Below, piece after piece: positions 1-61,537 of a stretch of DNA of 64,000 nt. Source of the DNA: Sordariomycetes sp. S80-01Y (taxonomy: Eukaryota > Ascomycota > Sordariomycetes); assembly GCA_037042185.1 (NCBI GenBank), contig JAXQJY010000026.1, positions 1,736,001-1,800,000 of the forward strand. Direction: 5' to 3'. The first letter of the stretch is position 1. Each line of letters begins with the position of its first letter. The notes beneath the pieces are model-generated. The model ran no database searches and had not been told where the DNA came from. It saw only the letters and a list, made by a program, of their open reading frames with translations. Made by a program: the position numbers and the translations under genes.

Positions 1-1760
1 TTATAATAACGTAGTTCTTCTATCTATAAGCTAACCCAGCGGAACCTAGACCTATCAGTGACGCTCCCGTAGGCGGTTATGGGAAAACGCACATACCTTG
101 CGCATTGGCTTTAAGCTTAATACTAATTTTCCGACGTAGCTCGTCTTTTTATGGGCTTCCCCGTAGTAGCTCCTGGCTCTTAATGCGGCGATCGAGTTTA
201 GAACGAATAAAAGCCCGGATATCCACCGCGTTACGATCGGACAATAGCTCGAGCGTGGGATAGCTCTATAAGCGACAGATAAGGTCCTGGTTATCACGGC
301 TCGAGATAAAGATTTTCAGGAGGCATGGTACCTCTTTTAAGAAGCGCTTAAGCGTAGCGAGGAGCGCCCCCCTGGTCTATCGGTTGCATTTATCTAACGC
401 ATTGAGGACCAGGATTGCCATCGAGGCTTTATACTCGCTAAGCAGTTAGAGAATAAGCTATTCGCTCTTGCCCTAGGTGAGCTGCTATTTGGCAAAGCCC
501 TTGTCCTTATACTCTTTATAGAGCCGCCTGGCTGGCGCGAGAACTTTAGCACCCTGAGGTCTTGTAAGCTACCTGGCGAGACTGGCAATAATATAAGCGG
601 GGTCGGAGCGGCCAGGCTTAGCAGAGTTACGGGCATAATAGAAGTATACCGGCGCGGGTGCTTTTTGCTCGCGAAAGGCATGACGCGTATTTTTAATCAC
701 AATTGACCTGCGCCGTATTAGCAAAGGCTCAGAAGGCAGCGACCAGATATACACAAGCTTACTCTTACCTAATCCGGGGATCCCATGTAGCCAAAGAATG
801 GACGATACGCTCTTATTCTACCAGGCCAAGAACTTAGGGTCCTATAGCAGCCATTGCCCTATTCCATTAAGGATATCCGCCTTCGCTTGCTTGTGATAGT
901 CGATGTATCGCTCTTAAGAAATCCACTATAAAATCTCGTTCTGCCTCATGCCTATAGTCGTTAGAACTAAAGAAGCGTAAGTTGTATAGATATACGATCA
1001 AGGTACCCTCTAACCTTCTAGAGGTTGTTATCCCAATGCGTAAGGGGCATCGCAAACTTAGAGAGAATCCTTTTAAGAGTGCTATACGACTTAAGTTACA
1101 CTGCGATGGTAAGTAATAGGACTTAACTAAAGTGAAGGGCTCACCTTATACGCCGATGCGGAGAAAGTAGGCGTTGACTATTTGCTACGCTTCCGTTATC
1201 TTAATAAAGGCCAAAGGCAACGATTAAGAGTTAAGGATGCTATACTTCAGCGTTCGCTCTGCATCATTTAGTCGCGGTCAAGCCCATGATTATGATTTTG
1301 CTTACCTAGCGTGTTCTTCTTATAATATCTCGTGGCCTCGCCAAGGAAGGTAAGAATAGAGGCATACAATTTAACAAGCTCGACATATAATATCTCATGT
1401 CCGGCCAGCAATATCTGCTTCGTTATATCCTTGACTATAGCACTACGGCAAATGGTCTTAGCCATGGCAGGGAGCCAGTCTAGTAGAGCACCGTATACTT
1501 CGAGATCGCCGACCGTAGCCTAAAATGGGTGAGAGTAGAAGCACCACAGGGATGAGGAGACGGATATTTAGCAAGAAATGGAAACCGGCCCATGGCAGGG
1601 CGGCGTGTGCGGGATCGTACTGGACCATAACATCGCCCACGGCCTTAAAGTGGTTTACCCATTTAACGACCTTAGCGAGTAGATCGCAAACGATTACCTT
1701 CTGGCCATTGGAGCGCGAGATAGACCACACGTTTTCAGTAGCCCGCGTCTAGGCTTTTTT
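1..1760 (-). pseudogene. Decayed NACHT-type NLR (STAND) gene, RIP-like
   Basis: Read on the minus strand, pieces in several frames line up in the order of a fungal NLR. An N-terminal effector-type segment lies at about 1460-1730, with the family hallmark VQYDPAHAALPWAGFHFLL. A NACHT nucleotide-binding domain follows, with an intact Walker A (WLHGIPGLGKSKLVY, about 752-798), then a Walker-B-like region (VLNALDKC, about 380-415), then KIFISSRDNQDL (about 300-335) and NAVDIRAFIRSKLD (about 190-240). These pieces are separated by several stops and frame changes, so no single open frame remains. The DNA is rich in TA steps and CTA/TTA/ATA codons, as expected from C-to-T RIP, unlike the genes to the right. 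NLRs of this kind act in fungal non-self recognition. The C-terminal sensor repeats would lie beyond the left edge. Family call is firm; loss of function is very likely. Confidence 0.8.
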
Positions 1761-3508
1761 AGCTAACTGTTGGAGCTCTTATATGTTTGCACGCTTCTCG
1801 TGCGCCCAGTCGATCTGAGACTTAACATGCTGAGGCAAAGTCTCGACGGCGCGTGTCCAGAGGTCGTCGTCGCTAGGGTTGTCAGCGCGGAGGGACGAGT
1901 GAATTCCAACCGATGTGCGAACTCACCTTCGCGTCGGAAGGGGACGGGGCGGCTCCAAGGTCATGCTGTTGACTATATCATGAATGTGGACAGTGTTGCT
2001 GATGTATCAGGAAATGGACGTGCGACCGCATCCAATTTAGGAGCCACCACACTTGGGCAGGTCACCGTCGATCGAGAGACCAATAAATGAGCAGTCTGCC
2101 CAGCGTCGCGCTTCAGCCGCAGGCAGAACGCAGCGCAGCGAATGATAGGTAGCTGCGGCACGATGGCGAGGCGCAGCCAGCGACTCATAAGTGCTCGCCT
2201 TTGCACAATGCCAATCGAGCCACCACGCTATCAGCCATGTGCGACGCATGGTAGGCTGATGAGGCATTCTGCCGCCTCGGACAGCCACTTCGCCCGCAGC
2301 CCATTTTAGCTCGGCCAAGGTGAACACAAAACACAATGTGGCCTCCGATGAAGACAGTCGGCCTCTAGGTGAGCGGGTGTGTCGCATGAGGACACTGGTG
2401 CCGAGCGCGTGCTAAGGCTTGGCTGCTACTGCGCATCTTTCACCACCAGGTGGTCTACCGCAATACCACATCGCGGCGCGGCGAGACGCGTACGGCTGCG
2501 AGCGCGTGTCAGAGCGCGCGTTCTCCGGGCGGCGGGTCTGCGCAGGGTGAAGAATAGCCTAGTACCAATTGTGGGGTAGAACCGACCGGTTTAAATCGCC
2601 GGGGTCTTCCCAATTCTGAGAGGATCAGATGTAGCCTGGCGGTCGCGAGCCAGTCATCACTCGCGTCATCAAATAAGCCTTCTACGAGTGTCGCGCCTTA
2701 ACCTGAGGGCACATGTTCAGCGGAGCTTGAGTGCAAGGGTAACCCCCTCGCCCATCGGAAGACGGCTTACACTTGACTACCCTACACACTGCCTAAAGTC
2801 CTCCCACGACGCAGTCGAATCGAAATTGTGTTCTTCCCTCTGTGCCTCTTCAGCGACATCTTCTGAGCATTGTTCATAAACCTACCAATACATGATTCAC
2901 GCACGTCGAGAGCGTGTGTCAGGCTCTCTAGGGATCGTCAACGCAACCGCCGTGAACAACCATTGGGTCATTTTTGAGGGGAAAATTGTCGGCTCGACAC
3001 GGTAAAGATTAGTGCGAAAGTTACAAAAACGACTTCCAGTGACCTCCTCAAATGTTAGGCGTTGCACGTGACTTTGTCCTATCAATGATCCTCGCAGATA
3101 ATACCTAGAGCTCTGACTTCTCATTGATCTGATAAATTTGTAGCTGAGCTGTGGCGTCATCCTCATCGCCGCTCTGCTTTCACCTAGACAAGCCGTGCAT
3201 CCGTCTCCGTTTGGATGAATGTTTGTACGATAACATTTCCGGTACACAACTGGTGTTATTATTCACGTGCTGAGTCATGACTTTGGCCAACAAAGCCAAG
3301 GACTTCAAGCATTAGTTCAGATTAGGGCGGGGTTGCCAACGGCCGGGCGCGGCCAGGATCCTGGCAGTGGTGCTGGTTAGGGGAAGGCTAGCAAACGAAT
3401 ATTCAATTTGATACTATTTTCAGCCGGCTAACTTCCTGGGAAGTTCGTCTAGCTTAGGTGCAATGCGACAGACCCAATGCTCAGCAACAGCTTTGGTGCG
3501 ACATTGCT
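1761..3508. other. No supported gene
   Basis: Open frames here are short, overlap each other on both strands and show no recognisable protein family or plausible splice structure. A GC-rich patch lies around 2460-2560. I see nothing else. Confidence 0.5.
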
Positions 3509-6496
3509 TTACTTGCGCTGCCTTTTCCCGCTTCCCTCGTACCAAGACGGATCTACCGCCTTTCTCTTGTGGACACTGTTACCAAAATATGTAGTTAAGC
3601 CACCACGACTGACAAGAGTGTCGATGCGGAATGGGGATCCGCTGATCGGGAAAGGCCGCTCAAAATTGTTTTCTTTGATCTCCACGTGGATCGTGTCTCC
3701 TGAGTAACAGGAAACCTCCTGATAGATATTCCCACGTGTGTCGCTCTCAAAGCGTGAGGACGTTGCTTTACCGTTGATCCGAATATTGCTATGACTGAGC
3801 CGTTGAAGTATTTGGGGCATCGCTGGATCATTACATGTGCGGCTGCAGAGGAGCCTTCCTCGCACACTGAACTCCTGGTTGATTCGCCGAGGGGGCTCTG
3901 CGAGCTCCAAGTAAAAGAGAGTTGCAAAAAGTCGAGCCGCTATTTCCCGAATAGTCTTCTGGAGCTGCAAATCTTTACAGACTAACGACTTGAGAATAGG
4001 TATCTTGCTGACATCGTCCAGGGCTGGGGGGTTTTCTAGCGTGATGTCTAGTCTGTAGTGGCCATCCTCGACCGGCGACTTTCTCATCGCACGAGAGGCA
4101 TCCGTCCAAGGCTTCGAGCCTTCCATCAGACTCATAAAGGCTCGAGGAACGCGGCATAGCCACGAGTCGCGGAAGAGCCGCACTTTACGATCAACAAGCT
4201 CAGGGAGGGGCGCATTTCCGCAGCCGAAGTTCGCCACTACGTCTGGCTTGTCCTCCCCGTACATCGCAACAAACTCGGACATCGCAATAGGGACCGGGTT
4301 GTTTTGAAGGACAGCGGCATCTTGGAAGCTGTCCAAGCCTGCAAGGTACTTCGGAGGAAAGTATCTGCATCTGCTTAGCTAGAACCTTTATCACAGTAAG
4401 GGTAAGTATGCTTACAACGGTGCTGCAGAATTGACTTGTCCGCTGCGCAAGTTCTGTTAGGAGAAGTAACCATTCGTCGGCATCAGACTTACACCTGGCA
4501 GGCTTTCACGTTTTCAAGGCTTCTAGGCACGTGATAGCCACTTCTCGGATCCCCCACGCCGTTGTAGTTTCCGAAAACGCAAATCGAAGGTTGTGCCACG
4601 CTCGCGGCCAAGAGACCAAACTTGGCCCCTATTTCTGACGCATAAGATAAGTCTGACATATTCCGATCGCCACATATGTCCTTCAAGGCTTCTTCGATCC
4701 CTGTAGAAGGATATAGCGAATCCAAGATAAGTAAGTGTATCCATTTCCTAATGAGATTCCTTGACTTCGTTTGGAAAGCCTTACCAGCGAGAGCTTCATA
4801 CTCTGCGATACATTTTCCCAAGTCCCAACCCTTCATATACAGAAGCAGGAGAATTAAAGCACCTATAAATGAGAATGAATGATCAGACAATAAAAAAACA
4901 GGGAAATCTCGAGGCTCACCAACGCTAGTCCCGTAAGAAAGAGTGAAGAACTCCTGAACAGGTATAGGAAGATCCAATTGCTCTTGAATGCCAGCTAGCA
5001 TCATCAAGGGAATGATCCCTCGAACACCCCCACCGTCGATACAGAGGATGTTTTGGCCAGCAGTGGGCGGGCGAACTCGGATATTGATGTCGGCTGGCTC
5101 ATGACACAGTAAGCACGAGTTCAGTCGAAAGTTCCAGGGACTTCCAGAAATCTGATCTCCAAAGATCTCAAGACACAGTTCACAATATTTGTGTCCACAC
5201 GGCGCTTTGTATTGTGGCACACGTGCCAGACACACTAGACACGTGTCGTCACTTTTGACATCAGTCCATCGGAACTTGGTTAGAGTAGCTTTGTGAAGCT
5301 CCGATGCAGACTTGGTTTCGTCTAGCTTTTCGAACAGTGTTACAAAGTGCTGAAGGACTAAGTTGCTGAATGCGTAAGGTGTGACTGCCCCGTCAAAGCG
5401 ATCTAGGCTAATGGCGTTCTCGCTCGCCTCAGAGCACACCGATTTATAAAGATACTCAAATACTTCATTTGGTTGGAATACTGTGATTTGAAGTTACTTT
5501 TGAGCTTTTTGATCTCCCAAGTGACTTACGATGCATTCCTGGAGGGTACTGTTCAAGCAGTATGCTTGACGCAACTACTTCTGCAACCATGTTTTCAAGG
5601 CCGTTGGCTGTTCTCACCAAGCTCATAAATGTCTCGATATGGCGTGATCTATCCTTCTTTACGGGGAAATCTTGCCTTGCAAAGTGGAGGTATCGTTGCG
5701 GTGACATCTGGCGATTGGCAAAACGATCGAACAAACTGTTGGCGTGTCGCACCGAGAAGAGATGACCTGACAGTTTCCTCTGATCTTCTACTAATTTTGC
5801 TTTCATCATGGCGTAAGACTTTAGAGTCTTGAACGATCCGTAAGTTCTTACGAAATCAAGACTCGAGAAGTGGTTGACGAAGGTGTGTGCGTCCCTGTTT
5901 AGTAGACCCTCGAACTCTTCAACCTGCTTATTTCTGGACTTCCGCCAGTAGTTCCCCTCCAGTGCGATAACTATTCGAGGCTGACTCTCTTGTCGTACAT
6001 TGAGACTACTTTGTTTCATCCAGAGGACAAGGTGTTCCGCAATCTTGGTCAGGTCCCGTGTGCCGTATGCGTAGAAGCAGAACACGTCAACGAAGGGATA
6101 CAGAAGCGTCGAGTAAAGGTGGGTATGGCTGTCTTTGCGAGAGTCCCCTTTCTCAAATCCATCGAAAGCGGTGCAGCAATTGGAACCGCCCCGCAGACGT
6201 GGTTTAAGAGATGCTGTGCCAACTAGAACTGGCTCATGGTCATCCGTACAAAGATCTAGGCAGAGTCTATCAGGTCTACGCGCTGGTCTAGGTGAGCAAC
6301 CCGGGCGGTTTTGGCCTCCAACGAACAGTAAAAGTTTTGGAAAGGTCGCAGAAGCAGGTAGACCTGAAGTGCATTCCCGCATGCGATCAGATCTGGTGTG
6401 AATGAGATCATCCCCGCCAGCATGCCAAATCCAATGAGAACAAGATGGTGCCATGATTGTTTTGTCACGATATTCACCACTTGACGCGACATGCAA
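3509..6496 (-). CDS. RING-finger plus patatin-like phospholipase protein
   Basis: This is a large fungal patatin-family protein, expected to be an acyl hydrolase acting on lipid esters. The exon at 5530-6496 ends with the helical region typical of these proteins and a GTAAGT donor near 5529; the next exon starts near 5475. It holds a RING-type zinc finger (CLVCLARVPQYKAPCGHKYCELC, about 5158-5230), then the patatin oxyanion motif DGGGVRG (about 5010-5035) and the nucleophile elbow GTSVG. An intron splits GTSVG from ALILLLLYMKGW and is closed by TTATAG near 4865. Downstream come FGNYNG, then after two more introns YFPPKYLAGLDSF and LQNNPVPIAMSEF, and the family-type tail with FPISGSPF and a basic end. 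The short exon around 4410-4450, expected to carry ARATSAAP, reads only as AQRTSQFCST, so it may be diverged or damaged. The N-terminal start is uncertain because two frames compete before about 6300. It sits on the recombinase side of the window, a common setting for patatin cargo in Starships. Confidence 0.7.
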
Positions 6497-6977
6497 GGCT
6501 TTTATATCTTCTCGTGGTATCTATTCCAAGAAAGCTTCTATATTTATCTCACATCCGAAACATTCTTCCCGGTTCCCGACTCCTAAAAATAGACTGACAC
6601 AAATCAACAGACCCGTAGTATTTCTAAACAAGCTTTTCTCGGGTCTTCTTCCACTTCGAAGCTGATCTGAATGAAGAACGATGAATTTAGCTTATTTGAA
6701 GCCCTCTACGCATCATGACAACTAGAACATGCCTACTAAAACGCGGGGCTGAATGCCAGGCTCGAGATTGCTGCCATAATAAGAATTTTATAGAGATCTC
6801 ACGGAACACATAAGTGACAAAAGCGGGAGAAGAAGCTTCCAATAATAGATAATTGTTATTTTTACTTTGAATGTGGCTAGAATTGTTCCCTTGACTATGA
6901 GATGAAGGAGTAGCTCGCCCTATTTTCACTCTAATCCACTGGGGCCTGATTCATTCCCACGTTCGCTCCTACCAACC

Positions 6978-7349
6978 TCAGTCCAAAGATCCATAGCTTG
7001 AGGGGTTCCTGGACTTGGAAGGCCGTATGTTCCGAAAGTTGAGGTTGAGTGCTCCGACTGCCATAGACATTAGCATTAAAGCATCACAAAAGGCGGGCGG
7101 CTGTACCTTGGACAGCAAAACGACATCGAGCTTTCCGTTCACACTTTGAATTTCCTGTAATATCTGAAGAAGAGCGTTCATATGCTCTTTATGTTGGGCA
7201 TGCTGGAAAGCGAAAGAAGCAGGAAAGCTACTCTTCGTAGGACTTTTGTCCAAAAAGAGGCGTGGGAGAAGTCTCTGGCTGCAATTGCAAGCAGTAGCAG
7301 AAGGAGAAGGATGCCCTTCGGATCCCGCAACTTGATTTGTGTTAGACAT
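6978..7349 (-). CDS. Short hypothetical protein with amphipathic helix
   Basis: An ATG-started frame of 123 codons that I do not recognise. Its centre has a convincing amphipathic/coiled segment (HMNALLQILQEIQSVNGKL, about residues 56-74), and the N-terminal third is rich in Ser/Pro/Cys. A GTACAG donor after LLSK and a CTTCCAAG acceptor near 7016 could remove about 95 nt and leave a protein of about 91 residues ending the same way. It lies just upstream of the patatin gene on the same strand, about 480 bp away. It could also be a non-coding open frame; no family supports it. Confidence 0.35.
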   Translation of the reverse strand: MSNTNQVAGSEGHPSPSATACNCSQRLLPRLFLDKSPTKSSFPASFAFQHAQHKEHMNALLQILQEIQSVNGKLDVVLLSKVQPPAFCDALMLMSMAVGALNLNFRNIRPSKSRNPSSYGSLD

Positions 7350-7490
7350 GTTTGAGTTCTTGAGAGGCCAAAGTTCTTTGAAGGGATGACAGTGGTTTTC
7401 AGAATCGAGATGATATTAGTATGTGGTGTCTTGGTTTTGTCTGACATTGATTTCGAAAAAGGGACGCAAAGGATGATTCTAGTTGCAGAA

Positions 7491-7735
7491 ATGGCCCTCA
7501 TAAGGAAACGGCCCCTCCTGTTTGCGAGAAATAGCATGGTTGCAGGAAATGGCCCCTCCTGAGAATCGGCTCTCATGGTTGTGGAAAACGGCCCCTCCTG
7601 TTTGCGAGAAATAGCATGGTTGCAGGAAATGGCCCCTCCTGTTTGCGAGAATCGGCCCTCATGGTTGTGGGAAATGGCCCCTCCTGTTTGCGAGAATTGG
7701 CCCCTCGTGGTAGGGGAAACGGCCCCTGCTGGAAC
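7491..7735. repeat. Degenerate minisatellite, ~22-bp GGCCCCTCC units
   Basis: About ten units of 16-23 bp, each starting GGCCC(C)TC, arranged in a higher-order pattern of about 41-45 bp (GGCCCCTCCTGTTTGCGAGA followed by a CATGGTTG-type half). Two 41-bp copies starting near 7510 and 7590 look identical. The array lies about 160 bp upstream of the glycosyltransferase start. On the minus strand it translates as a repetitive Gly/Phe/Arg frame, which I regard as fortuitous. Confidence 0.85.
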
Positions 7736-7895
7736 GATGGAACGTTGACCAAGTCTCGAGCCACCAGTACAAGGATTGAAGCAGTAATGAGCCTTTACAA
7801 ACCCATCATTGCATGAGACGTTCCAAAGTCGCAAGCGATTTCTCATTCCTACAAGTCGCGCAATATTACAAACTTCAGTTTTTCTTGTAAGCAGA

Positions 7896-8822
7896 ATGAG
7901 TTTCCAGCTCCTCCGACTCTTCACACAATGGAAAATATGCCTTCTCATCGGTCTTCTCTTGATTCTCTCCTTCTTCCACAGGCGAGCGACACCCCTCAGC
8001 ACAAACGCATACATCTTCTACGCCACCGAAGATACGTACGCCTGCTCGGTGCTTATAAATGTATTCTTCCTACGTCACGTGTTCCACAGCAAGTTACGGA
8101 TCATCACACTTCTCTCCGACAACATTGCTGCATTCTACTACGACGCGTTTTCAAGTCTCGACGTGACCGTCATCGCAAGATCCCCACCTGCCCTCAACTA
8201 TGACAGCATTGGCTGTGGTCGAGGCTGCCTGCTCAAGCTACTTGCCTTTGAGCCATTCGATCTAGAGCCCCCAGTAACGCGTGCTATCATAATGGACTCG
8301 GATCAGCTTATACTGAGAGACCTGGAACCCGTTTTCGACATCCCTTCGTCCACAATTTCAGCGCCAAATGCCTACTGGATCAATGACCATACCTTCAGCA
8401 GCACATTCATGATGTTCCAACCAAGTTCTGTACTGTGGGAAGAAATTAGAGATGCATTAAAAAACATCCCGGCCGACACCTACGTGATGGATCTTATCAA
8501 CGAAATCTTCCATGACAGACTCACCGACCTTCCTCCGACTTACGGTACGCTTAACAGTCATTGGGAAGACAACGAGATCCCTCTGTGGTTCCGGAGCTCC
8601 ATACATGACGAATCGCAGTCGTTTCTGGCCCGGGATTTGCGGGAGCTTTTTACCGATGTTCACGTACTTCACTTCACGGCGGTTGGAAAACCTTGGATGT
8701 ATGATACGGCCCAGCTTCGCTATATGAGGCCAGAAGCGCACCCAATCTTGGCAGAGCAGTGGGCATACTGGAGGACTTTGGCTTTGCAGCTTTGTCCTTC
8801 GGGCATCATCACTCATGTGTAG
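7896..8822 (+). CDS. GT8-like glycosyltransferase, type II membrane protein
   Basis: A single-exon gene of 308 codons. The ATG at 7896 is used because the longer frame has only a TTG start. A short cytoplasmic tail is followed by a membrane anchor (about residues 14-27), the layout of Golgi glycosyltransferases. The luminal domain has YIFYATEDTYACSVLINVFFL (a nucleotide-sugar-site-like start, residues 39-59) and a metal-binding DxD motif, MDSDQL, at residues 134-136. LEPVFDIP and a later HFTAVGKPW (the H-x-GxxKPW region of GT8 enzymes) are also present. This is the fold of yeast Gnt1-type N-acetylglucosaminyltransferases and glycogenin relatives, so it probably transfers a sugar from a UDP donor to a glycan. 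The acceptor cannot be told. The minisatellite just upstream may affect its promoter. Confidence 0.75.
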   Translation: MSFQLLRLFTQWKICLLIGLLLILSFFHRRATPLSTNAYIFYATEDTYACSVLINVFFLRHVFHSKLRIITLLSDNIAAFYYDAFSSLDVTVIARSPPALNYDSIGCGRGCLLKLLAFEPFDLEPPVTRAIIMDSDQLILRDLEPVFDIPSSTISAPNAYWINDHTFSSTFMMFQPSSVLWEEIRDALKNIPADTYVMDLINEIFHDRLTDLPPTYGTLNSHWEDNEIPLWFRSSIHDESQSFLARDLRELFTDVHVLHFTAVGKPWMYDTAQLRYMRPEAHPILAEQWAYWRTLALQLCPSGIITHV

Positions 8823-9909
8823 CTTCGTCAGTTAACGACAGCACCCAGTGGCAGAGCGAGGTGTGTTCTGACCCGAAGCTGAGTCCGATAGAAATTTCAG
8901 ATAGCCAACATGTGCTCACAAATTGATAATTTGCCACGGTCGCTCTTCTCATCCTGTTCGTGTTGTTTTGGGTTCTTATCGTATACTCAGAGTGGACCTT
9001 ATGTGATATATCAGCCAGCGCTTCACCAATCACGGCCAGTGTAAGCAGAACGGTTTATCCACAAAGCGGAGGTCAGAACCTATCAAAAGTTTCCTCGCCT
9101 GTGATTCAGTACCGACTGTCCGGAACTCGCGCAAACTAATGTTGGCTAAGCGTGCGAAATTGCCAGGCCGGACTGATGTCGCATCGCTTTCCAATGGCAA
9201 GCGTTAGATGGATCGAAGGAATGCCTGCAGCCCAAGCCATCCGAGCGAGCTTCAGCGCCTAATTGCGTGTCCCTTCGAAGGTTGCGGGATGTGATGCAGC
9301 CACTTCTTCCGCTCCATATCCATCTAGCACAGGACGCACCCTTGGAATGGTCTCGACCGTCTCCGATATCTTGACCATCGTGTAATGAATCGAAAGCCAT
9401 GCAGATCACGTCCGGTCGAGCCGACGTTGCAGGGCGTCTCGTTCGCATATTAACGCACGGGGTTGCGTGATTGACGGCCCGTGCCCTGCCTTGTAGGTAG
9501 GTAGGGCTGATGACGCTACGCCTTGTGATTGGTGGCTTGACATGATGTGTGCAGTACGGAGTATGTATGCACACCTGGGCGATTCGTACAACCCCGCTAT
9601 GGCACATAACAAATGAACCCGCCCAAATCTAGGTGACCATCGACCTGACACGGCGCTAGTATGTGGTCATAGTCGCTATGGGCACTTGATGCACGCGTTG
9701 CATTAGAATAACAATCAAAGCCTAATGTGCAAAGAATCTACAGTGATCGATTTTGAATATTTAAGGATTGTGATTCCGGTCGGCCAAATAGCTTCGCGGC
9801 AAGTCGTATTGCACCAACATTCGAAACGGCGTGATGACCCCAACTGGAATAGCCCCGCAGCCTCGCTTACTCTGAACCACTCTGTCGGAAATAGCTAGTC
9901 CCATAACAG
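8823..9909. other. No supported gene
   Basis: The 153-codon minus frame at 9146-9607 has an ATG but no family, no low-complexity protein features and no codon bias that would support it. No RNA gene or repeat was seen. Confidence 0.5.
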
Positions 9910-10330
9910 TCAAGCATTGTTTTGACCAGCCACTAGGGGGTCCCCTCTGCCGTCTGTAGGTCCGCGTCTACCTCCGGTCTCACGCATTGCATGTTGGTGC
10001 TCCGGCGATATCAGTTTTGAGGCTTCGAGATTCTCAAGCGTCAGTACTCACTTGCAATTCACTCAAACAGTCGCGCAGCTGACGGTTCATGCGAGCCGAC
10101 TCAGAGTGCGACTCCTCCAAAGCCGCTACCCTCGATTCAAGCCGCGATAAATTTTCGTCGCATCTCAAGACCATTGCCTTGGTCTTATGGTGCTGTTCGA
10201 GGCTGTCGTGGAAGGACTTTGACAGTTGCGTGAAATAGACCGGCAAGTCAGGGACATTGCTAACCGTTGGGGCAAGACGAACTGCGGGCCTGATCTCGTC
10301 TATTGAGCAGAGGCGAGAATCGACGACCAT
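9910..10330 (-). CDS. Small coiled-coil protein, two exons
   Basis: Exon 1 (10052-10330) has a clean ATG and 93 codons. Residues about 45-93 form a coiled coil with heptad-like leucines (ENLSRLESRVAALEESH). It ends at a perfect GTGAGT donor. A GCCGGAG acceptor, 52 nt on, gives a second exon (9910-9999) that stays in phase for 29 residues to a TGA, for a total of about 122 residues. No enzyme or DNA-binding motif is visible. It is the first of a series of short coiled-coil genes running to 13.7 kb, which suggests a shared origin or a family typical of accessory regions. The second exon rests on splice signals and phase only. Confidence 0.45.
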
Positions 10331-10704
10331 CGCGTTCTATACTTTGATGAAGCATGCGAAGTAGCCTCAGACGGATTGCTAGAGTTCATATGCACCCCCA
10401 TGGTTCGTGTTGGTTGGGAGACCATGCACGAGACCTTCCGGTTTCAGGGGTCCAAAAAGAGATCCCTGTAAACCGGACTTGATAGCGGATCTTTTCACGC
10501 GTCCAGGAGCGATCAGGTGATTACGCAACCAAAAATTGTAGGAAACATGGGTGCGGTTTCTGCTGCTGCCTGGGGGCTGAAAAGGGACTTCGGGGCCATT
10601 TTCTTTTGTCGAGAACACAACGCAGACAGGGATCCTTTTTTGGCACCTCGGGATTACAAGCATGAACTCAGAAGGAATCGACGACAATTGTTCTATTCGC
10701 AGAA

Positions 10705-11131
10705 TTACTGAAGCTCCAGCCTACTTGGAGGCTCCGGAAATCTCAAGTTCCGCACGCGCTCTTCCATCATAGCTGAGTCGGCATAGCCATCGGCCGGTAC
10801 ACTCTTTGCCTGTTCCGATATGCCTTCAAGATTGGACTTTGTTAGAGAGTCAGTTCAATACTCAAGTCGAGAGCGATGGGGTTCATACGCCGGACTCCAG
10901 TACAAAGCACCAACGGCGGTCATCGTTCGATGTGTGGGCCCTGCAATATCCCGTCTTTCTGTGACGGAAGACGATCGCAACATCGAAATCAAAGAGGCTA
11001 GAGAATTCACGCATTTTGCTGAGCAACGTGTCGTGTCGTTTATTCTGCTTCGGGCCATTCGTCGGCATGTTGGCGAGGGGGGCGAGAATTGTCGTGAGAC
11101 TACCAGGAGATATGAAGGGAGATACAGACAT
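10705..11131 (-). CDS. MADS-box-like mini-protein, two exons
   Basis: Exon 1 (10889-11131, 81 codons) carries a segment aligned with the SRF/MADS fold: KRHDTLLSKMREFSSLFDFD followed by VAIVFRHRKTG, matching the MADS pattern KR..LLKKA.ELS.LCD..V..I.....G. Exon 1 ends at GTATGA. A 52-nt intron with the branch CTCTAAC ends AAAG, and exon 2 (10705-10836) continues in phase to a TAA, giving 124 residues in all. Proteins this small have only the dimer/DNA-contact core, not the K or activation regions of full MADS factors. The basic DNA-contact helix is weak, so DNA binding is not certain. An in-phase junction to the coiled-coil frame just upstream (11197-11556) is possible and would make one longer protein. 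Confidence 0.6.
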
Positions 11132-11196
11132 ATTTATTTCAGTAGATGTGGCTAGATTCCGAAAGGTCCTTCTTTCTCCATTTATTCCACTTTCCT

Positions 11197-11630
11197 TCAC
11201 ATACCATCATTTTTTGGCACCCCTGTCTCCTGTACTCCCCCCTCTGGAAAGGCAATCGGAATACTTCCGTGGCTTGCATCCCGAGCTGCGGCGGTGCCCT
11301 GCATCAGGAGGTTTCCAAGGTGGAAACATTCCTCTTTCATAGTTTCCAGCTCCTGGATCGTCTGCCAATGCGCCGAGGATAGGGCATCGTATTCTCGGCG
11401 CCACCAGAAGCATCTTCCATATGAGTGCTCCAGCAGTTCCTCCAGAAACTTGATCTTCTCTAATGCAGAAACGAGCTCACAGTTCTGCGAAGACCAGAAC
11501 TCACGAACAGAGGCGCGTTGCCACTGTCCTTCTGTTGAGCCATCCTCAACGGCGCTCTTCGATACGTTGGTGTTCGGTGCCGGCGAGAATCAGCACAGCT
11601 CATTTTTTGACAGGACCAAACACTTACCAT
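11197..11630 (-). CDS. Small coiled-coil protein with ATG|intron start
   Basis: The main exon (11197-11556, 120 codons with stop) is open and helical: EKIKFLEELLEHSYGRCFWW and HWQTIQELETMKEECFHLGN give a broken coiled coil over residues 30-85. The likely start codon is ATG at 11628-11630, followed at once by a textbook GTAAGT donor. The 71-nt intron ends CGAAG and restores the frame. No family is recognised. The last codons overlap a GTATGT donor that could instead splice in phase into the MADS-like gene 65 bp downstream; transcript data would decide. Confidence 0.5.
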
Positions 11631-12125
11631 GTTGACAATAAGAATCTGTTTTCGTGAAGAAGGAATTTATTAGTTGTGAGGAAGGAATAAGTGAGTTGTG
11701 AAGAAGAACATCGATAGTAGCGAGGGGAACTGTCAGGTTTATACTCGAGGCAGGTATCAAGGAGTCAACCCTCCCAAAAAAAGGGGGAGCGCGAAGTTGT
11801 TCCTGGACATGAGGCCCATGTTACCAAAATTAGTTCAGTGATAAGCGCGCGCCTTCAAAGGCGCTTCTAGGTGAGCTGCAACAGGTCAGATTTTGTTACC
11901 TGGCGTGGCTTCTGATCGGGCTTGTGATGGCGAACAGAGCCATGCAGGGTTTCATGCTACCTTTGCAGGACCAACAATCTTTGCAGGACCAACAAGCCAT
12001 TGACTCGCTGGGGTTTAAATTGGGACGATATCCACCACCGGAACTTTCATTTAGAACCTTCTCAATCATCACGAGATACTTCGCGTCTTTTGTGCAATAG
12101 AAAGATCATATTCCAGTTGACTGCC
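11631..12125. other. Divergent upstream region, no gene seen
   Basis: This stretch separates the minus-strand coiled-coil gene from the plus-strand gene at 12126. It contains a short direct repeat (CTTTGCAGGACCAACAA, twice near 11960-11998) and a poly-A run. Nothing else is supported. Confidence 0.4.
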
Positions 12126-12785
12126 ATGGATTTTAACAACAATTCAACGCCAACACTTCCTTCGTCCGAGTTGAACATTACCTCTCCCGATAAGGTAGTG
12201 TCCGAGTTGAGCGATACCTTCACCGAGAAGAGGGTGTGCTTTTGTTCAGAGGGGACGCCATTTTTGTCATCTCAGTCTGTTCTTTCGGACAATCTTGACA
12301 CATCCTCTGGCCCCGTCTTCGATGTTTTTAATCCACAATTCTTGCTAGGGGTTGGCAAATCAGATACTGCTCATTCGACGCTAACCCCTGGCTTTGAATT
12401 CGACATCAATGCGCATATGCATCTAGGAGAATGTCCTCCTGTTCCCAATCTATTCCAGCCTGGATGGGAGGGCTGTGCGAACCAAGCTACCGCTTTTCGG
12501 GAGATTCAACACGAGGATCACTGTTGGAGAGAATATGTCAACTCCTCCATGCTTCAAGTTCATATTTTGACCTCAAAGATTGAATCGTTGGAAGGTTCTC
12601 TTCGAGGAGCAGAACAAAAAATCGAAGAGTTCCATTCTTGGTCGAAGAAGATGGAGGAATACAACGACAAGTCCCAAGAGATCATTTTGGCTCTCGCTGA
12701 AAAGCTTAGACATTGCGAGACCACGAAAGTAGAAGCGGCTACACAGGCGAGTCAATCATACTTCTTTTCTCTCCTTCTTGGCTAA
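12126..12785 (+). CDS. Hypothetical protein with C-terminal coiled coil
   Basis: The ATG at 12126 sits in a strong context (GCCATGG) and opens 219 codons without an intron. The N-terminal half is Ser/Thr/Asn-rich and probably unstructured. Residues about 150-205 form a coiled coil (LTSKIESLEGSLRGAEQKIE). The upstream part of the open frame lacks protein-like character. I know no family. It resembles in size and architecture the neighbouring genes at 9.9, 11.2 and 12.9 kb (short, low-complexity head, coiled-coil tail), although it lies on the other strand. Confidence 0.5.
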   Translation: MDFNNNSTPTLPSSELNITSPDKVVSELSDTFTEKRVCFCSEGTPFLSSQSVLSDNLDTSSGPVFDVFNPQFLLGVGKSDTAHSTLTPGFEFDINAHMHLGECPPVPNLFQPGWEGCANQATAFREIQHEDHCWREYVNSSMLQVHILTSKIESLEGSLRGAEQKIEEFHSWSKKMEEYNDKSQEIILALAEKLRHCETTKVEAATQASQSYFFSLLLG

Positions 12786-12938
12786 TTCATCACACAGACG
12801 GAAGATTCGGGATCTAGCCCGAGCGGATGACACAGTAATTGATCGTCATCGTGATCACGGGTAGTGGTTCATACTTCTCGAAGCAGGACATGGGTAGTCG
12901 CGAGGTTCCTGTAGTATATTTAATATAATATATTTGAT

Positions 12939-13701
12939 CTATATGAAACCTTCCATCGTGATAGGCGGATTCTTTTGTAGTTCGTTCACCATTGGACCAA
13001 GTTGCGAGAAGACTTTCGAATACCTCAGAGAGGCATTCCTAAAGAAAGTCTCCCTCTGATTCGCCTTCAGGGCATCTTCGCGGTATTCTTCTTGCCTTTC
13101 CTGCGATAATTTGACCTTTTCTTCCAGGCTCAGCCTTAGCTTGATCTCGGCATCTAGTTGTAGTCTGATAAAGTAAAGCTGCTCTGACAGGTATTCATTT
13201 TGCACTTGTAGCTCATTGATGCGGCCTGTAAAGCTCACAGACTCTGGCTCGGTATCCTGCTGTCTAATTAGTCATGTCCAGGAGTACAGTGGATGAATGC
13301 TTACGAATACGTGCTGACCGGGTAAGTCTTGTGGGGTTTCCATCGCCTTCACAGCCTCGAAAGACACGCCTACACCGTCATATAATTCCTTGTAAGCCCC
13401 AATGGAATGGTCACTCAGATTCTTATGAAAAAGGTACATCTTCTCGGGCAAGACCTTCCAGCTGTAGCCGTCATCCCTACTAGTGTTGAGCCTTACTTGT
13501 GAGGGATCGAGATGGATTCCTATTGTGTTGCCTACGTGGAGAGTTACGAATTGGGCGGCTATCACGACCTGTGTACCTACTAATGTGCTGGCTGAGCGCT
13601 TGGCGGCACTTTACCCTCCATTTTGCCCGTTCTAGATTACTCTGTTTTCTCACAGCAAACGCTTTCATTATGACGGGTCTGTAAATTCTTCCTGTTGACA
13701 T
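12939..13701 (-). CDS. Three-exon hypothetical protein with coiled coil
   Basis: Exon 1 starts at the ATG at 13701 and ends at a GTAAAG donor after KWR. A 46-nt intron ends GTACACAG. Exon 2 encodes VVIAAQFVTLHVGNTIGIHL and about 70 further residues to a GTAAGC donor after GQHVF. The 47-nt second intron contains ACTAAT. Exon 3 begins QDTEPESVSF and encodes a long coiled coil (QVQNEYLSEQLYFIRLQLDA onward) ending TMEGFI at 12939. All junctions keep phase 0, which supports an intact gene of about 225 residues. The globular middle segment is unknown to me. Confidence 0.6.
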
Positions 13702-13814
13702 GAATGTGTTATGGAGTGTGTGACTGCTTATATATTGCTAAAGTGTCTTGTGTCTCGCGCCAAAACATTCACCACATGCAAAAATGGCCCCCTCCTAGCG
13801 CGCGGCAACCCGAA

Positions 13815-16426
13815 TTAGCCAGATGGGGTTTCGAAAATAATCCTATCAAGGGTAATTGAGGCGACCTTCTCATCACTGCTTCTAAAAATACCATCGTCTG
13901 CCCGGTTCCCGCTCACGAGCTCTTTTCGGATCCTGTGTATGTCATGCAAGTGGTTCCACAGGTCGTTAAACGAATCGTGTACCTGTTCGCAACGCGGATC
14001 TGGGCAATCCGCTCGTGCCCAGTTATGGGAAACAACATGGTCTTCCCAGGTTTTCCTAGAGCAAAAAGGACGGAGTCTGCATGAAGCGGAAAGATCAACG
14101 TTCCATAAGCACACAAGACAATAGCCGGGTAGAAACGTTTTGCTGACTTTGCCCCAACCCAACTCGACTGGCATGAATTGATCATCGAGGTGTGCCGCGC
14201 AGTGTATGTCCCACGATTTCGGGTCAAAGTACCACTGGTTGCAAAAGAAACAGAACTCTGCAACAGAAAATTGCTTCTTCACACATTCGTAGACGTGAAG
14301 GTCACTTGGAATTTCGTGTTAGCGCAGCCGTAAACGTCTGGGTCGCGAACTCACTCTTTCGAAATCCGAGATCTCTTGCAGGAGCAATGAGTCGGATCCA
14401 AACCGGGGCGAGAAAACTCTGAAGTGGTTTCGTAAAGCGTTACCAGGTAGCAAAAGGCTTTTTTTCCATCTTCGCTGCGTAGCTTAGTCGTCGTAAGTAA
14501 AAGGTCTGCAAGCTTGTCTCGTAGTGGCAGCACTGTCCGTAGACGCGAAAAGGGTAGATCAACACCGCAAGCCCTGAATTCCGTGTGATTTCCCCTGCCG
14601 ATATTTTCGAGACGGAACTTTGATAGCTCTTTTTGCTTCAAGGCCTCCATCTCTCTTCGTATGCGACGAACATCTGGGTTGGTGATCTCGTCTTCATCTT
14701 CCTTTTGTCGTTTCTCGGCATCTTCGTCATCCGGACCCCTGACCAAAAGTCCGACTTCTTCCTCCGACTTGGTTTTGATCTTCTCAGGGTTGATCTCTAC
14801 GAAGTGGTGAGTATACTGCTTGGTTTTGTCCTCCACACCATCGATCTGTTCTGCAAGTGCGCGGTATTGGTCGGTACGTTTGAGCGCTTCGGACCTTCCG
14901 ACTGGCAGTGTTTGCCATAGCTGGGGCTCCCAGACGAACTCATAGTGCCGAAAAAGCCCGGCAATATCAACGATACGGGCGGGCTGTCCTAGATATGAGG
15001 CTTGACCATCGACTCCGCCATTCCTGGCGGCGTAATGTTGGCCGTGCATGCCGGCATTGTCATGCCCAGCGATTCTTTGCCTCTGAACAGTAGAGTACTG
15101 TGGCAAATTGTCTGCTTCGTTAGTGTATATCTCGAGCTCAGGGGCTTGAAAGCCTACCTATCTTAGTCAAGTTCTCAGCTCGTATATCTTGGAGACCGGC
15201 CGGCTGCGGAAACCCGGCGCGAATCTGAAGTTCTCGGAACTCTCTATGGAAGACACCGGCGGTGAGTATCCTCCCCTGAGTGCCCTTGAAAACCGGCTTC
15301 ATCAAGACTTCTGGATCCCATTCTATCTTCTTGCTGTCATGAACCGAAGAGACTTCGAGATCCATGAGCTCTAGAAAGCCCTTGCATCCTCGGTAATCTC
15401 TCAATGCACCCGTAGAGCAGAAGATTGCTAGCCAAAAGAGCATCGGATTTGTGTATAATGGCATCATATTTTTCCAAATGCCTTCGTGTATATGTGCCTG
15501 GGACCTGCGTACTGTTAACCTCTAATAACAGCTTTGTCCGGGAGACTTGCGTGTGGTTCGATTCTGGATGTTTGCCCTTGAGGAATTTTGTGAGTTGAAT
15601 GGCGAACTCAGGATCGCCATATTCATTCCGAAAAACAATGAGAGTTATGTCCTCTCTACATTAGCCAAGTTTCACATTCATATAGTATTGAGTTACCTTG
15701 TAATGAATGCCGATATCGCTGTTCGAACGTGCGCTGGACTCAATATAATCAGAGACCCTGGCTGCAGTGAACACATTCGCTGACAGTAAGGCCCAGCGGT
15801 CGATCCGGATTGAAGGACGACTGAGGATCTTCCAGTCGTGAGCCCAGGTAAACTCTCCAATCCAAATAAAGTGCGTGGCGGCCATATGCCGTCTCGCTTT
15901 TGGTGGTGCAATTTCGAGTTCTTTCCCCAGCTGCCCGTTAGGTTGGATCAGCTTCTCAGTTGTCAGTTAAGTTTCGTAGAGGGTGAAATCGTCACAAACC
16001 GTGCTGATGGATGCGATGTGAGACTCTGGAATTTGTCCGCGATGTCGTTGGTAGCCTGCGGTAAAGCGCTTCCAGTAGGACTTGAGGCCACCCGCTCGCA
16101 TCCTCTCCTCAGGCTTTCGGCCCACGCGCATTGCGAGACCCATCCTATAGATGAACTCTTTCAAATGCGCCAGGTCATTGACGCTGCGCTCACCGTATTC
16201 CTCGATGCTCATGGTGTGTCAGCGAACGCTTTCAAGCAAGCGAGTCTAAGGGGCCTTACAAATCGTCCCAGTTGCGAAGTTGTCGTTCGTATTGTTCGTC
16301 CGTGTGATCGACCAAGTTCTTGAGAACAGGTCTGTTGTTCACTATGCCAGGCTTCAAATGGACTCCTTTTTGACATTTCATGTAATTCTTGGGTCGGGGC
16401 CCTCGTTTGCGTTGCTGGGGACCCAT
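13815..16426 (-). CDS. DUF3435 tyrosine-recombinase-like protein (Starship captain-type), intact
   Basis: Seven exons join with consistent phase into 775 codons: 16260-16426, 16000-16207, 15697-15954, 15547-15651, 15158-15497, 14355-15114 and 13815-14304. The introns are 43-52 nt, several with ACTAAC/CTGAC branch sites. The N-terminus is basic (MGPQQRKRGPRPKN); a SAM-like core-binding segment precedes the catalytic fold. Tyrosine-recombinase landmarks are visible: Arg191 in TAARVSDY, Arg352 in LQDIRAENL, and His377 with Tyr387 in RIAGHDNAGMHGQHY. Downstream is a charged region (about 430-480) and then C-terminal Cys/His fingers (CFFCNQWYF, CLVCLW and CPDPRCEQ followed by HLHDIH). DUF3435 proteins are often misnamed 'FluG-domain'; a subset are captains that excise and insert Starship elements. 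The gene starts next to the core block and points into the accessory segment, as a captain at an element edge would. A stand-alone DUF3435 gene is the alternative. Confidence 0.85.
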
Positions 16427-16902
16427 TGCGCGACGAAAATGGAGCTGTTGTGTCGACGCGCCTGCTGGGGCGTCTGAGTAAAAGCGTTAGCCGCCGAGGC
16501 CTTGAGGATGGGGAGGTCGACAGGTTTATATACTTTCCCAGTGGCCACGGTATCCACCGAGACTCCTTTTTCAGATCTGCTGAAAATAGCTGGCCATCAA
16601 CCGTCCTCTGCTCTCATCGACCCGTGGCACGCTGGCACCTCGCCAAGTCGTGACCGCTGCCACTCAATCAGTACAGTCCGCCTCAGCACAGCCATACTGA
16701 AACAATCCATTGGCAATCTCTTGATTCCATAGCTTTCCAAACTCTTCCCTTCGTATCTCAATTGGGCTGCTTACAGATGGACACGGCCTGTGTGAAGGGT
16801 ACTTAAACCTACCTGATGCCCCGAATCTCTTGATCCCTTCCTCACTTTTCCATTGCCTCATCTTCGCCTTGGTTCACTCAAGTCATCTTTCTACCCGCCT
16901 CA
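16427..16902. other. Divergent promoter and possible element edge
   Basis: This 476-bp stretch lies between the recombinase gene and the plus-strand gene at 16903. If the recombinase is a captain, the Starship terminus and target-site repeat should lie here. I could not identify a convincing short direct repeat or terminal inverted repeat by eye. A CT-rich tract (about 16795-16900) precedes the 16903 start. Confidence 0.4.
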
Positions 16903-17892
16903 ATGTTGCCTCCAGATACCCAGATGCCTCCAGAGCAATGCAGCCACGATTGGGAGACAGTCTTGCATCCACTTCTCCCTCCTGACCCAGTCTTCGGAGA
17001 CATGAGCTTGGATGACTTCAGCGACCTGCTTGATTTCACCCTCACTGATGAAGTATTCTCGGTTGCGGAGGAGCCTGGCATGAGCCTCCCAGGCCCGCAA
17101 ACAGTTGGAGCTTTCGGTGGGGTTGAATCGGTCAACGATATGAACTCCCTCTCGCCGCCCATTCTGGGGGCTGCACTCCTACAAGACGATCCCGTCAAAG
17201 ACAAAGATGTTGGGCTCGCTCCCGAAGAAAGTGGCAAAATCCCACACACCACGCGAACAGGCACTACCTGCGAAGAAGGATTGAGCCAGGTAGTAGTCCA
17301 CCCGCCCGACAAGGTCAGCGAAGTGATGGCATGCATTGCCGACCTTCGACAGAGAGTCGACAACCTTGGCGATATCTTTCGTCGAAGCTTCCAAGGCAAC
17401 CCGTCTTCTGGAGGAGTCCGCAAGGCGCGTTCACGCAAACCCACACCCAGGCGCCAGCGACAGACGGGAAAGGCGAAGCGGACGACTATGCCTGCGGGCT
17501 TGGAGCCAGGGCATGTGCGCCTTCGGGTGCAGCAGGCCTTCTTGGGGGTCCATGAAATCACTTGGTGCGAGGCAATCGATGGGAGCAATGGCTGCTGGAG
17601 ACCTCGTGACGGTCAATTTGCGGTTGATGATGGTCTGGGGTTTCATGGCGAAGAGCTGCTGAGTTTCGGCTCCGATCTCTCCATCAAGCTTCAGCCGACT
17701 TCGGGCCAGAGGTCAATCTTTGTTAGCTGGAAGGGGGATGATGATGAACACGGTCTTCAGTTTGGCCATTTTGAAGGGACTGATGCAGTCGATGAGCAGC
17801 GTCAGCTCGTGGTTTGTGAGGAAGCCATCCTGAGCATGATGGATGATCCTGTAAATAGTCGGGGAAGTGGTTGCGTAGTGGACGTGAAATGA
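16903..17892 (+). CDS. Hypothetical acidic/basic protein
   Basis: A single-exon frame of 329 codons starting at an ATG after a CT-rich leader. The first 130 residues are acidic and proline/leucine-rich (DMSLDDFSDLLDFTLTDEVF). A leucine-rich short helix follows, then a strongly basic nuclear-localisation-like patch (RKARSRKPTPRRQRQTGKAK, about residues 174-193). The C-terminal third looks globular, with Trp and Gly. Acidic head plus basic patch suggests a nuclear regulator, but no DNA-binding domain is seen and the function is unknown. Confidence 0.6.
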   Translation: MLPPDTQMPPEQCSHDWETVLHPLLPPDPVFGDMSLDDFSDLLDFTLTDEVFSVAEEPGMSLPGPQTVGAFGGVESVNDMNSLSPPILGAALLQDDPVKDKDVGLAPEESGKIPHTTRTGTTCEEGLSQVVVHPPDKVSEVMACIADLRQRVDNLGDIFRRSFQGNPSSGGVRKARSRKPTPRRQRQTGKAKRTTMPAGLEPGHVRLRVQQAFLGVHEITWCEAIDGSNGCWRPRDGQFAVDDGLGFHGEELLSFGSDLSIKLQPTSGQRSIFVSWKGDDDEHGLQFGHFEGTDAVDEQRQLVVCEEAILSMMDDPVNSRGSGCVVDVK

Positions 17893-18448: not shown

Positions 18449-21400
18449 CTACAACCTTCTGCTCCCCGGCTCAACACCCGGTCTCGGCGCGGGTCTTCCC
18501 GTAGTTGCGAAATACTCCCCCATCACACCCACGGCATAGGCTCCCCCGGCCACATAAGCCGTTCCCAGAATGACCCTCTTGCCCAGACCCCTCTTCTTCT
18601 GCCCCTTGCCCACGCCCGTGGCCTTGGGACCAGAGTAGACAGGCTCCTCCCTCCGCACGTCAATGCCGGAGCGGAACGGCGGCTCGGGCTTCGGCTCGTT
18701 GGTGTCAGCGACGGAGTCGTAGTTCACGAATCCGGTAGGCGAGGCAAAGTTTCCAGTGATGGGGGGCTTGCCCATCATGTCGATTGGGTTGACCTTGCTG
18801 GCTGTCTGGGGGGTGGATCTAGTCGAGGGAGAGGAGCGTGTCTTGCGGAAGACGAGCACGTCCTTTTCACCCGAGACGATCTCGTAACCTTCTCTTTGCA
18901 AGCCGGAAAAATGGGCGAAGAACTTGGCCGGGTTAGACAGCTTTGGAATAACGTCGGCGGGGGTGAGGGGGCCTGAAGTGTCGTGCACCGCAGATGAAGT
19001 TTCGGCTGTGCGGATGAGGTCAGTCGTCGGGTCGTAGGCGAGGATCTTGTAGGTAACGGGCCCGTCTGACTTGGCACTTGTGGACTCAGCGGCCGAGGAG
19101 CTCCCCGGGCTCAGTTGGCGAGCGAGTGCCTCTTCCGCGTCCTTCACAGCATTGTCAAACCGAGCGTCAGGTACCGATGATGCTTTCGGCGATGTAGTTT
19201 TGCGACGGGCGTGGCGGTTCAATGCCGGCTCCAGCCTCGGGCTCTCACTGGGGAAGCTCTCGTCCATTGAGCTGGGTTCCGTCTCCTGCGCCTCACTCTC
19301 ATACTGCATGATCTTCTCTGCCTTGTTCTTAGGGAATAATGTTGACTGCGACGGCGAGTTTTTCGTGCTCCAAGACGTCGAAAATTCCTCTGGGAAATCC
19401 CGAGTGTAGTTGCCCGTCATCTTCTTCGGGTGTTCCTTTGCGAGCTTTTCATGCGCCTCCTTCATAATGGGATCCCACTTGTTGCGATATACCGCTGCGG
19501 CGGCTTTGCGATGCTCCTCCTTGCTCAGATTCTGCTTACGAACCCGTCGAAGCACATTGGCGCGGATCTCCTCAGGCGTCAAGTTGTCAAGCTTCGAATC
19601 ATTCTTACCATCCTCACCGTCGTCATTGCCGGATGAGCCGCGCGACCCCTTGGAGGAAATGCCTTGCGGCTGTGATCGCTGGGTGTAGGAACCGAGGTCG
19701 CTATAGCTGTTGGAAGCCTCTCCTGGAGTACATGTTTCAGCAGGTGCCGGGGAATCAAAGTTCTGAGGATCGTACCGGTCCAAATCGGAGTAGTTCTTGC
19801 TAAGCTCCTCAGGGTGGATGTGCTCCGTCTTCGACCCGTACGTGCGGTTGTATGCGGCCAGGTCGCCATATTTCTTGGAAGCCTCTTCGGGGTGCACGTG
19901 GTACGGAGTGTCGACATCATCAATCACGGGTGTCCCGTAGTTACCGAGATCTTCGTAGTCCTTTGTGACCTCCTCGGGGTGTCTTCTGACAGAGTGGTTC
20001 TCGAGGCCGGATGAGCCCGGTCCGTAAGCTGACAGATCGGCGTACTTCTTCGATAGCTCCTCGGGCGTAAGCAGTGGCAGACCATCGGGTTCATTCCAGC
20101 GGACAGCACCGTAGGATCCGAGATCCTTGTAGTCCTTGGAAACTTCCTCGGGATGCCTGCGAGGGATGCGATCCGAGAACTCACGCGGGGCGTAGCCAGC
20201 CAGGTCCTTGTAAAACTTGGACCTTTCCTCGGGGGTCAACTGAGGAAGACCATCAGGTTCATTCCACTTCACCTGCCCGTAAAGGTGGAGGTCGTCGTAG
20301 TTCTTTGAAAGCTCCTCCGGTGTGAGCTTTCGTAAGCCATCTGGCTCGTTCCAGTAGACAGCCTTGTACTCGCCAAGATCAGTGTACTCCTTGCCAGGTT
20401 CCTCAGCGGCCACCTCAACCTTGGGAGGCAGTTCGTTGCCCTTCACGGTGGTGTCCATCTGAATCGCCTCATAGTCGCGGATCAGGGAGTCCTTGGCTGT
20501 TCTAGGGCCGTCGTACGTGTCGAGATCGTCGTAGGCTTTAGACTTCTCCTCTGGCGTTAACTTGCGCAGACCATCGGGCTCGTTCCACCTGACTTGAGTG
20601 TAGGAGTCGAGGTCTGTATAGTTCTTCGACAGCTCCTCGGGTGTCTTCATCTGAAGACCGTCAGGCTCGTTCCAGCGCACCGCTGTGTATTGGTCGAGAT
20701 CGGTGTAGTTCTTAGATAGCTCCTCGGGGGTTTGCTTCTGAAGGCCGTCGGGCTCATTCCAGTTGACCTGGCCGTACTGATCAAGGTCGGTGTATTGCTT
20801 TGAAAGTTCCTCGGGGGTTGCCTTTTGCAAGCCATCCGGTTCGTTCCACTTTACTTGGCCATACGAGTCAAGGTCGCTGTAGCTCTTCGACAGCTCTTCA
20901 TCGGTTGCCTTCTGCAAACCATCAGGCTCATTCCATCGAACGGCTTTATATTTCCCGAGGTCTTTATATTTCTTCGACGACTCCTCTGGCGTTTGCTCTG
21001 GCAAGCCATCGGGCTCGTTCCACGTTTGCGGCTTGTACTTGTGAAGATCATCGTATTCCTTCGACTTTTCCTCGCTAGTAACGCGGGGCAGACCGTCGGG
21101 CTCGTTCCACTGTACTTTCTCGTAGTTTTCTTTGGGCTGCTTAGCCTGCAAATTAGGGTGATGATCGACGTCTTCGAATTTTGGGGTGAAGGAGGACTCG
21201 GGTTCTGCAGCTCGACTCTTCGCAATGCGACGGTTGGTGATGGGGTCAATCTGCCCTTCGTCGATTTCGGCGGCTGTTGTGGTGGCGTCAATCACCTCTG
21301 CAGGCGTGACCTCTTTGGGCGCTTTCTCAGCGTGAAGCATGTTGCGAATGTTTCTCAGTGGCTTCTTCCAGATGTCGTATTGCGCCTTGGCGTGCTCAGA

Positions 21401-60279: not shown

Positions 60280-60786
60280 AGTCACCGCTTCCCGCTTCAT
60301 TCTAGGTAATATCTAATCAGATCACGTATTTGGATTTGGTTCATGCTCATCCATAGTCTGAGTTTCTGCATAGGCTAATAAAAGCTTGCGAAAGCGATCT
60401 GCCTAATTCACAATTTCGTTCCGTGAGGCTCCAGTCATCCCATCAGAGTGTTCACAGCGTAAAGGTATTAGTCCAGGTAAAGTCTGATTCTGAGCGCACG
60501 GGATCGTCCTTGATCCAAGTTGGTCTGAAATTGGCCAGGGTTGGCTCAGCAGCCGAAAGCCGCGTGGTACAGAACGATGAGGACCGCACTTAGAAGACGT
60601 CTCGTTACACCCACGCAGTCGGCGATCTTGAGACACCTCAAATCACGTGGTCGCTATGAGACGACTAATAAACTGGTGCTAGTGGTGGTCCAAACCATTA
60701 TCATACAAAAAAACCATACCTGTATAAGACAACAGCGACGCATGTGGCGGGACATGCATTCGAACATGGCAAGTTCCACAACGGCA
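60280..60786. other. Intergenic between the tandem paralogues
   Basis: No supported coding sequence; it presumably holds the promoter and 5' end of the second paralogue. Confidence 0.4.
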
Positions 60787-61368: not shown

Positions 61369-61537
61369 CTTTACTGGTCGAGAAAAAATCACAATGGACA
61401 AGCGAGAAACCCCTGTTACTCCATTTTGTGCACTCTGTTCATGAAAATGGCACTCAACGAGCGCTGGTAGGGGACTCCCATGAGGTAGCGTATATGTGCC
61501 CCTAAGTACAAGATTTTGATACATACCCACTTTCAAG

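Follow-up and report, generated by a model that had tools for sequence, protein, structure and literature searches.

In the fungus Sordariomycetes sp. S80-01Y we analyzed a stretch of 64,000 nucleotides (contig JAXQJY010000026.1, positions 1,736,001 to 1,800,000; called the window in the following and numbered from its first letter) and found an apparently intact gene for a tyrosine recombinase of the DUF3435 family, which begins close to the main break in base composition and points into a segment of lower G+C content with a patatin-like phospholipase gene and the relic of an NLR gene. According to published passages, the recombinase genes known as captains lie first at the 5' edge of the transposons called Starships, and NLR and patatin-like genes are recurrent among the accessory genes of these elements. 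We tentatively regard the region between 16.4 and 16.9 kb as the edge of a present or former Starship, a reading to which we give slightly less than even weight. Position, direction, size and neighbour types at the locus would fit a Starship 5' end, and the candidate is plausible and not very unusual. If true, it would be one more candidate giant transposon of a known kind, beside many captain-like genes for which no element has been mapped.

The gene and its immediate surroundings comprise the following features:

13815..16426, minus strand: DUF3435 tyrosine-recombinase gene, from the gene model, the PF11917 match (37.5 bits) and residue positions
16426-16260, 16207-16000, 15954-15697, 15651-15551, 15504-15158, 15111-14355 and 14304-13815, minus strand: exons of the DUF3435 gene, from the gene model
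13815..14304, minus strand: last DUF3435 exon with the Cys/His-rich C-terminus, clusters at about residues 631-736 of 775, from a reading of the residues
16427..16902, no strand: intergenic stretch of 476 bp, putative 5' edge, with a TATA-like box and 14-bp repeats
16903..17892, plus strand: first open reading frame (ORF) to the right of the putative edge, an orphan without Pfam or NCBIfam match, side not assignable

Rebuilding the DUF3435 gene from the raw sequence gave seven exons with 775 codons plus the stop and no internal stop. The spliced protein matches PF11917 (DUF3435) with 37.5 bits over a cut-off of 25.8 (E 1.8e-9, residues 187-506, profile positions 37-333 of 418), and the intact 775-codon gene that an earlier, sequence-only reading of this DNA had described is thereby confirmed. 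Of the stop-to-stop ORFs that have 100 aa or more and overlap 1-20 kb, 50 in number, 23 were compared whole with Pfam, the DUF3435 exons being used as the spliced protein. The six introns are each 45-52 nt long and five of them are of the GT-AG type. Intron 4 (15550-15505) was read by eye as GC-AG (GCAAGT...GCAG), but its borders are not settled, since many other donor/acceptor pairs keep the frame (GT donors only were tried), one of them with a weak GT donor at a distance of four bases downstream. The protein is probably divergent within its family.

From motifs and spacing, residues of catalytic type follow each other in the order R191, K236/K238, R353, H377 and Y387, with His377 ten residues before Tyr387 and with Gln350 at the position of the His in the HxxR box, which is Tyr in captains. 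Arg191, His377 and Tyr387 had been named before and stand as given, while the second arginine is residue 353 and not 352. For the Sanctuary captain of Bipolaris sorokiniana, passages of a published study map R173, K201, H289, R292 and Y324 of Cre to R260, K308, Y424, R427 and Y458 of the captain (PMC12506042); there Y381 and Y416 of HhpA correspond to Sanctuary Y424 and Y458, and both are reported as needed for function. The distance from the first arginine to the lysine is 45 or 47 residues here and 48 in Sanctuary, that between the two arginines is 162 versus 167, and that from the second arginine to the tyrosine 34 versus 31. Judged by this alignment of motifs, the catalytic spacings appear close to those of the Sanctuary captain, with Gln350 as the single apparent departure. 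Gln350 is the feature likeliest to surprise a specialist and, should the region be an edge, would be a natural variant with which to probe the active-site requirements of DUF3435 recombinases.

The C-terminal Cys/His fingers had been raised as a worry for captain status, and this worry can be relaxed: the Sanctuary captain (786 aa) also has a DNA-binding domain predicted at its C-terminus, at residues 711-784 (in the passages of PMC12506042 considered here), and since the Cys/His region at about 631-736 parallels this domain it does not count against a captain. The search of the DUF3435 protein for a zinc finger gave no Pfam match up to E = 1, and a single-sequence structure prediction for the last exon was uninformative (mean predicted local distance difference test score, pLDDT, 36.5). 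Within a narrow selection of passages on DUF3435 together with zinc fingers or FluG, C-terminal fingers in captains were not mentioned.

The gene begins close to a break in base composition. When the 64 kb were divided by binary segmentation, the G+C split made first, which is also the strongest, fell at 16,390 (log-likelihood gain 81.9), with a G+C content of 0.492 to the left, 0.541 and then 0.577 to the right and 0.499 after 58,690. Over three sub-ranges the change-point stayed at 16,390, with two-log-unit ranges of 15,710-17,060, 15,680-16,460 and 15,690-16,890. The DNA of lower G+C content to the left of this border amounts to 16.4 kb within the window and may continue to the left of its start. 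We could confirm the 476 bp reported previously between the start codons of the DUF3435 gene and of the ORF at 16903; within them a TATATAA box, read by eye, precedes the DUF3435 ATG by about 100 bp.

The segment into which the DUF3435 gene points contains these features:

3509..6454, minus strand: patatin-like phospholipase gene of about four exons, PF01734 29.9 bits (cut-off 27.7), with a sub-threshold RING-like motif
1..1900, minus strand: NLR (NACHT_N / NACHT) pseudogene with decay of the type left by repeat-induced point mutation (RIP), cut by the window start, from Pfam, RIP index and stops
7896..8822, plus strand: GT8-like glycosyltransferase ORF of 308 aa, single exon, weak match to PF01501 (16.0 bits, below the cut-off of 24.3)
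10034..13610, both strands: orphan, partly coiled-coil ORFs without a match above any Pfam cut-off

The patatin-like gene and the NLR relic, both within the 16.4 kb of the low-G+C side, would fit the Starship reading, and both had been recognized correctly from the letters. Three pieces of the relic were scanned, giving PF24883 (NPHP3_N) with 52.8 bits over a cut-off of 24.8, with NACHT_N and DUF7708 under their cut-offs. Its NACHT part has 10 stops among 266 codons, all of them TAG or TAA. Among 64 windows of 1 kb the composite RIP index exceeds 0.2 in the first two alone (next highest 0.00). With 500-bp windows it is above 0 in five of the first seven and in 8 of the remaining 246, which reach values of up to 0.52. 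The decay of the relic agrees with RIP, although windows with positive values are not confined to it. Together with the gene types and the short introns, RIP points to a filamentous ascomycete as the host. The change-point, the weak GT8-like ORF and this RIP-type signature are additions to what had been noticed before. That patatin-like and NLR genes are recurrent Starship cargo, as had been claimed, agrees with the published passages, but they are mostly absent from the Starships of Gaeumannomyces (PMC12134995, in part), to which we return below.

In the putative edge stretch two 14-bp direct repeats lie at 16715 and 16824 and no other copy with up to two mismatches is present in the window; at least two matches were obtained in 36 of 100 shuffled sequences. 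Comparing the stretch with 1-13,814 gave longest direct and inverted matches of 11 nt, equalled or exceeded in 49 and 44 of 60 Markov-simulated controls, respectively. Against 1-2,000 the longest direct match was 10 nt and the longest inverted one 9 nt (reached in 22/60 and 57/60 controls), and against 13,300-13,814 they were 8 and 9 nt (57/60 and 23/60). As these repeats are no longer than chance, no terminal repeat is visible within the window, in a test that would not reveal a target repeat of only a few bases, and for an element whose far end may lie outside the window.

Relatives were searched with single proteins as queries, a procedure able to find close relatives only, in viral and prokaryote collections. 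For the DUF3435 protein one pattern match in viral_contigs and 21 in genome_contigs were obtained, none of which was confirmed, and no PDB sequence matched up to E = 10. The protein encoded at 18449-22135, the ORF at 16903 and one patatin exon had no relatives in viral_contigs, and Tam41, used as a housekeeping control for fungal DNA, had 18 pattern matches there with none confirmed. Since this control is also without relatives, their absence from these collections carries no weight.

Taken together, an apparently intact gene near a composition border, directed towards patatin-like and NLR sequences in a segment of lower G+C content, upholds the earlier proposal of a Starship edge in part, and several observations weigh against it. 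No direct repeat, inverted repeat, left end or empty site was shown, the repeats being tested within the window. For the change-point a block bootstrap gave a broad range (13.1-18.6 kb, 2.5-97.5%), and the agreement of this point with the start of the DUF3435 gene is therefore suggestive and not exact. The first right-hand ORF (measured over 16834-17892) has a G+C content of 0.554, as on the right side, but its G+C content at third codon positions (GC3) of 0.567 is within the range of the left side (0.473-0.634, nine entries), and each of the 16 other right-hand ORFs has a higher value (0.582-0.872); thus, the segment may include a gene further out than the DUF3435 gene. A second stretch of low G+C content at 58,690-64,000 shows no DUF3435 in the four ORFs scanned there, so that such patches need no captain. 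The PF11917 score is modest, gauged by the cut-off and not by known captains, and covers the profile only in part, and Gln350 occupies the position matching HhpA Tyr381, where two described captains have Tyr and Cre has His. Neither DUF3723 nor a ferric reductase was found among the 23 ORFs scanned whole. Patatin-like genes, DUF3723 and ferric reductases are lacking in Gaeumannomyces Starships, in which one NLR was found, as far as the passages of PMC12134995 go, and patatin-like or NLR neighbours are therefore not a constant mark of Starships.

Several of these points would be accommodated by a solo DUF3435 gene in an AT-richer, fast-evolving chromosomal patch. The patatin-like gene, the NLR relic and the orphans would then be lineage-specific genes independent of each other, and there would be no edge at 16.4-16.9 kb. 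This is a serious possibility, to which we give distinctly less than even weight. The second low-G+C, orphan-rich stretch at 58.7-64 kb, the edge repeats within chance and the left-type GC3 of the first right-hand ORF would all fit. So would the literature, as passages of PMC12134995 describe DUF3435 genes as solo in the more usual case and report trees in which captains are dispersed among the solo genes, so that sequence alone may not separate the two, and in one survey 143 mapped Starships stand against 10,628 orphan captain-like genes, from which the citing authors infer many overlooked Starships (PMC12289983, in part). However, the break near the gene start, the inward direction and the two Starship accessory types within 16 kb would then all be chance, and while the solo DUF3435 genes of Pezizomycotina belong to the same family, the gene described here has a composition break close by and Starship-type neighbours to one side. 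Should the region not be an edge, it would show how readily solo DUF3435 genes by AT-rich patches resemble Starship ends.

Gln350 admits two further explanations. A Starship lineage with a divergent, still working captain, in which QxxR for YxxR is an independent active-site variant, seems unlikely to us. Less likely again is a domesticated or inactive DUF3435 protein kept for DNA binding, with an open frame but with a Gln350 box that no longer supports transposition: the reported need for a Tyr at the HhpA Tyr381 position, the modest family score and the Cys/His-rich C-terminus would suit such a protein, but the remaining catalytic positions are kept and the position of Gln350 is variable across the fold (His in Cre, Tyr in Sanctuary). 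We regard it as very improbable that the recombinase gene alone moved without cargo as a small Crypton-like unit of about 3-4 kb. Elements below 15 kb called by starfish did turn out to be captain-gene indels in the passages of PMC12153272, but the repeats between 13,300-13,814 and 16,427-16,902 are within chance, in a test that a very short target repeat would escape, and the main break in composition is close to the gene on one side only. Cryptons also use a tyrosine recombinase as mobilising enzyme, but its domains are reported to be very distantly related to those of captains, and a sizeable cargo is named as a difference of Starships (PMC12134995, in part).

For the preferred Starship edge the closest known parallel is Sanctuary (PMC12506042), with a DUF3435 captain of 786 aa versus 775 here, a predicted C-terminal DNA-binding domain where we find the Cys/His region, and similar spacing of the R, K, R and Y residues. 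As in Starships such as Sanctuary, a few hundred bp separate the gene from the proposed edge, and it points inward and has patatin-like and NLR neighbours. In contrast to these, the Tyr of the YxxR box is Gln here, the scanned ORFs have no DUF3723 or ferric reductase, and edges, repeats and empty site are only hypothetical. The gene, its family, residues, position and direction, the break in composition and the neighbours are what we observed, and edge, mobility, mechanism and Starship status are what we infer from them. In the resulting model the DUF3435 recombinase would be the present or past captain of a Starship-type element and would mark its 5' end. The edge would be located between 16.53 and 16.90 kb, upstream of the TATA box of the gene, and the element would extend leftward beyond position 1, with patatin-like and NLR genes as its accessory content. 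If the enzyme works like Cre and the captains studied so far, four protomers might bind the element ends, possibly assisted by the C-terminal Cys/His region. Activation of the phosphate would fall to Arg191, Lys236/238, Arg353 and His377, and the attack by Tyr387 would lead to cutting and rejoining at a short target repeat.

Among the other features of the left segment, the third intron of the patatin-like gene has eight frame-keeping options and is not settled. This gene stays open beside the RIP-type decay at 1-2000. The GT8-like ORF gave no NCBIfam match and its single-sequence structure model was unusable (mean pLDDT 35.9). Just upstream of it, at 7503-7732, is a minisatellite with a GGAAATGGCCCCTCCTG-type core and periods of 23, 41, 45 and 80 bp. 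Its motif was considered as a signature of the element and rejected: 12 matches were found versus 1.74 expected, but seven of these are the array itself. The five matches outside the array are in four places and all have three mismatches, one of them being at 13781-13796 just 3' of the DUF3435 stop. For the orphan coiled-coil genes of the sequence-only reading, the lack of any Pfam match above cut-off holds, whereas the coiled coils were called by eye and from sub-threshold Pfam matches only. Beside these orphans a degenerate MADS/SRF-TF-like piece is found at 10883-11206 on the minus strand (21.3 bits, cut-off 26, E 1.9e-4).

The right-hand block contains housekeeping genes, six of its nine scanned ORFs exceeding the cut-off of a Pfam family (GH115, protein kinase, muniscin, Tam41, MAD and dual-specificity phosphatase). 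The long ORF at 18449-22135 on the minus strand contains many degenerate repeats of the type WNEPDGL...PEELSKxYxDLxxY and has no Pfam match. Scans for tRNA (ARAGORN) and with Rfam across the window gave nothing. The second low-G+C stretch at 58690-64000 holds small orphan ORFs, of which 4 of 16 were scanned without a Pfam match above cut-off. Two plus-strand ORFs in it, at 59533-60276 and 58947-59375, look paralogous, with 28% identity over 103 aa (E 5e-9).

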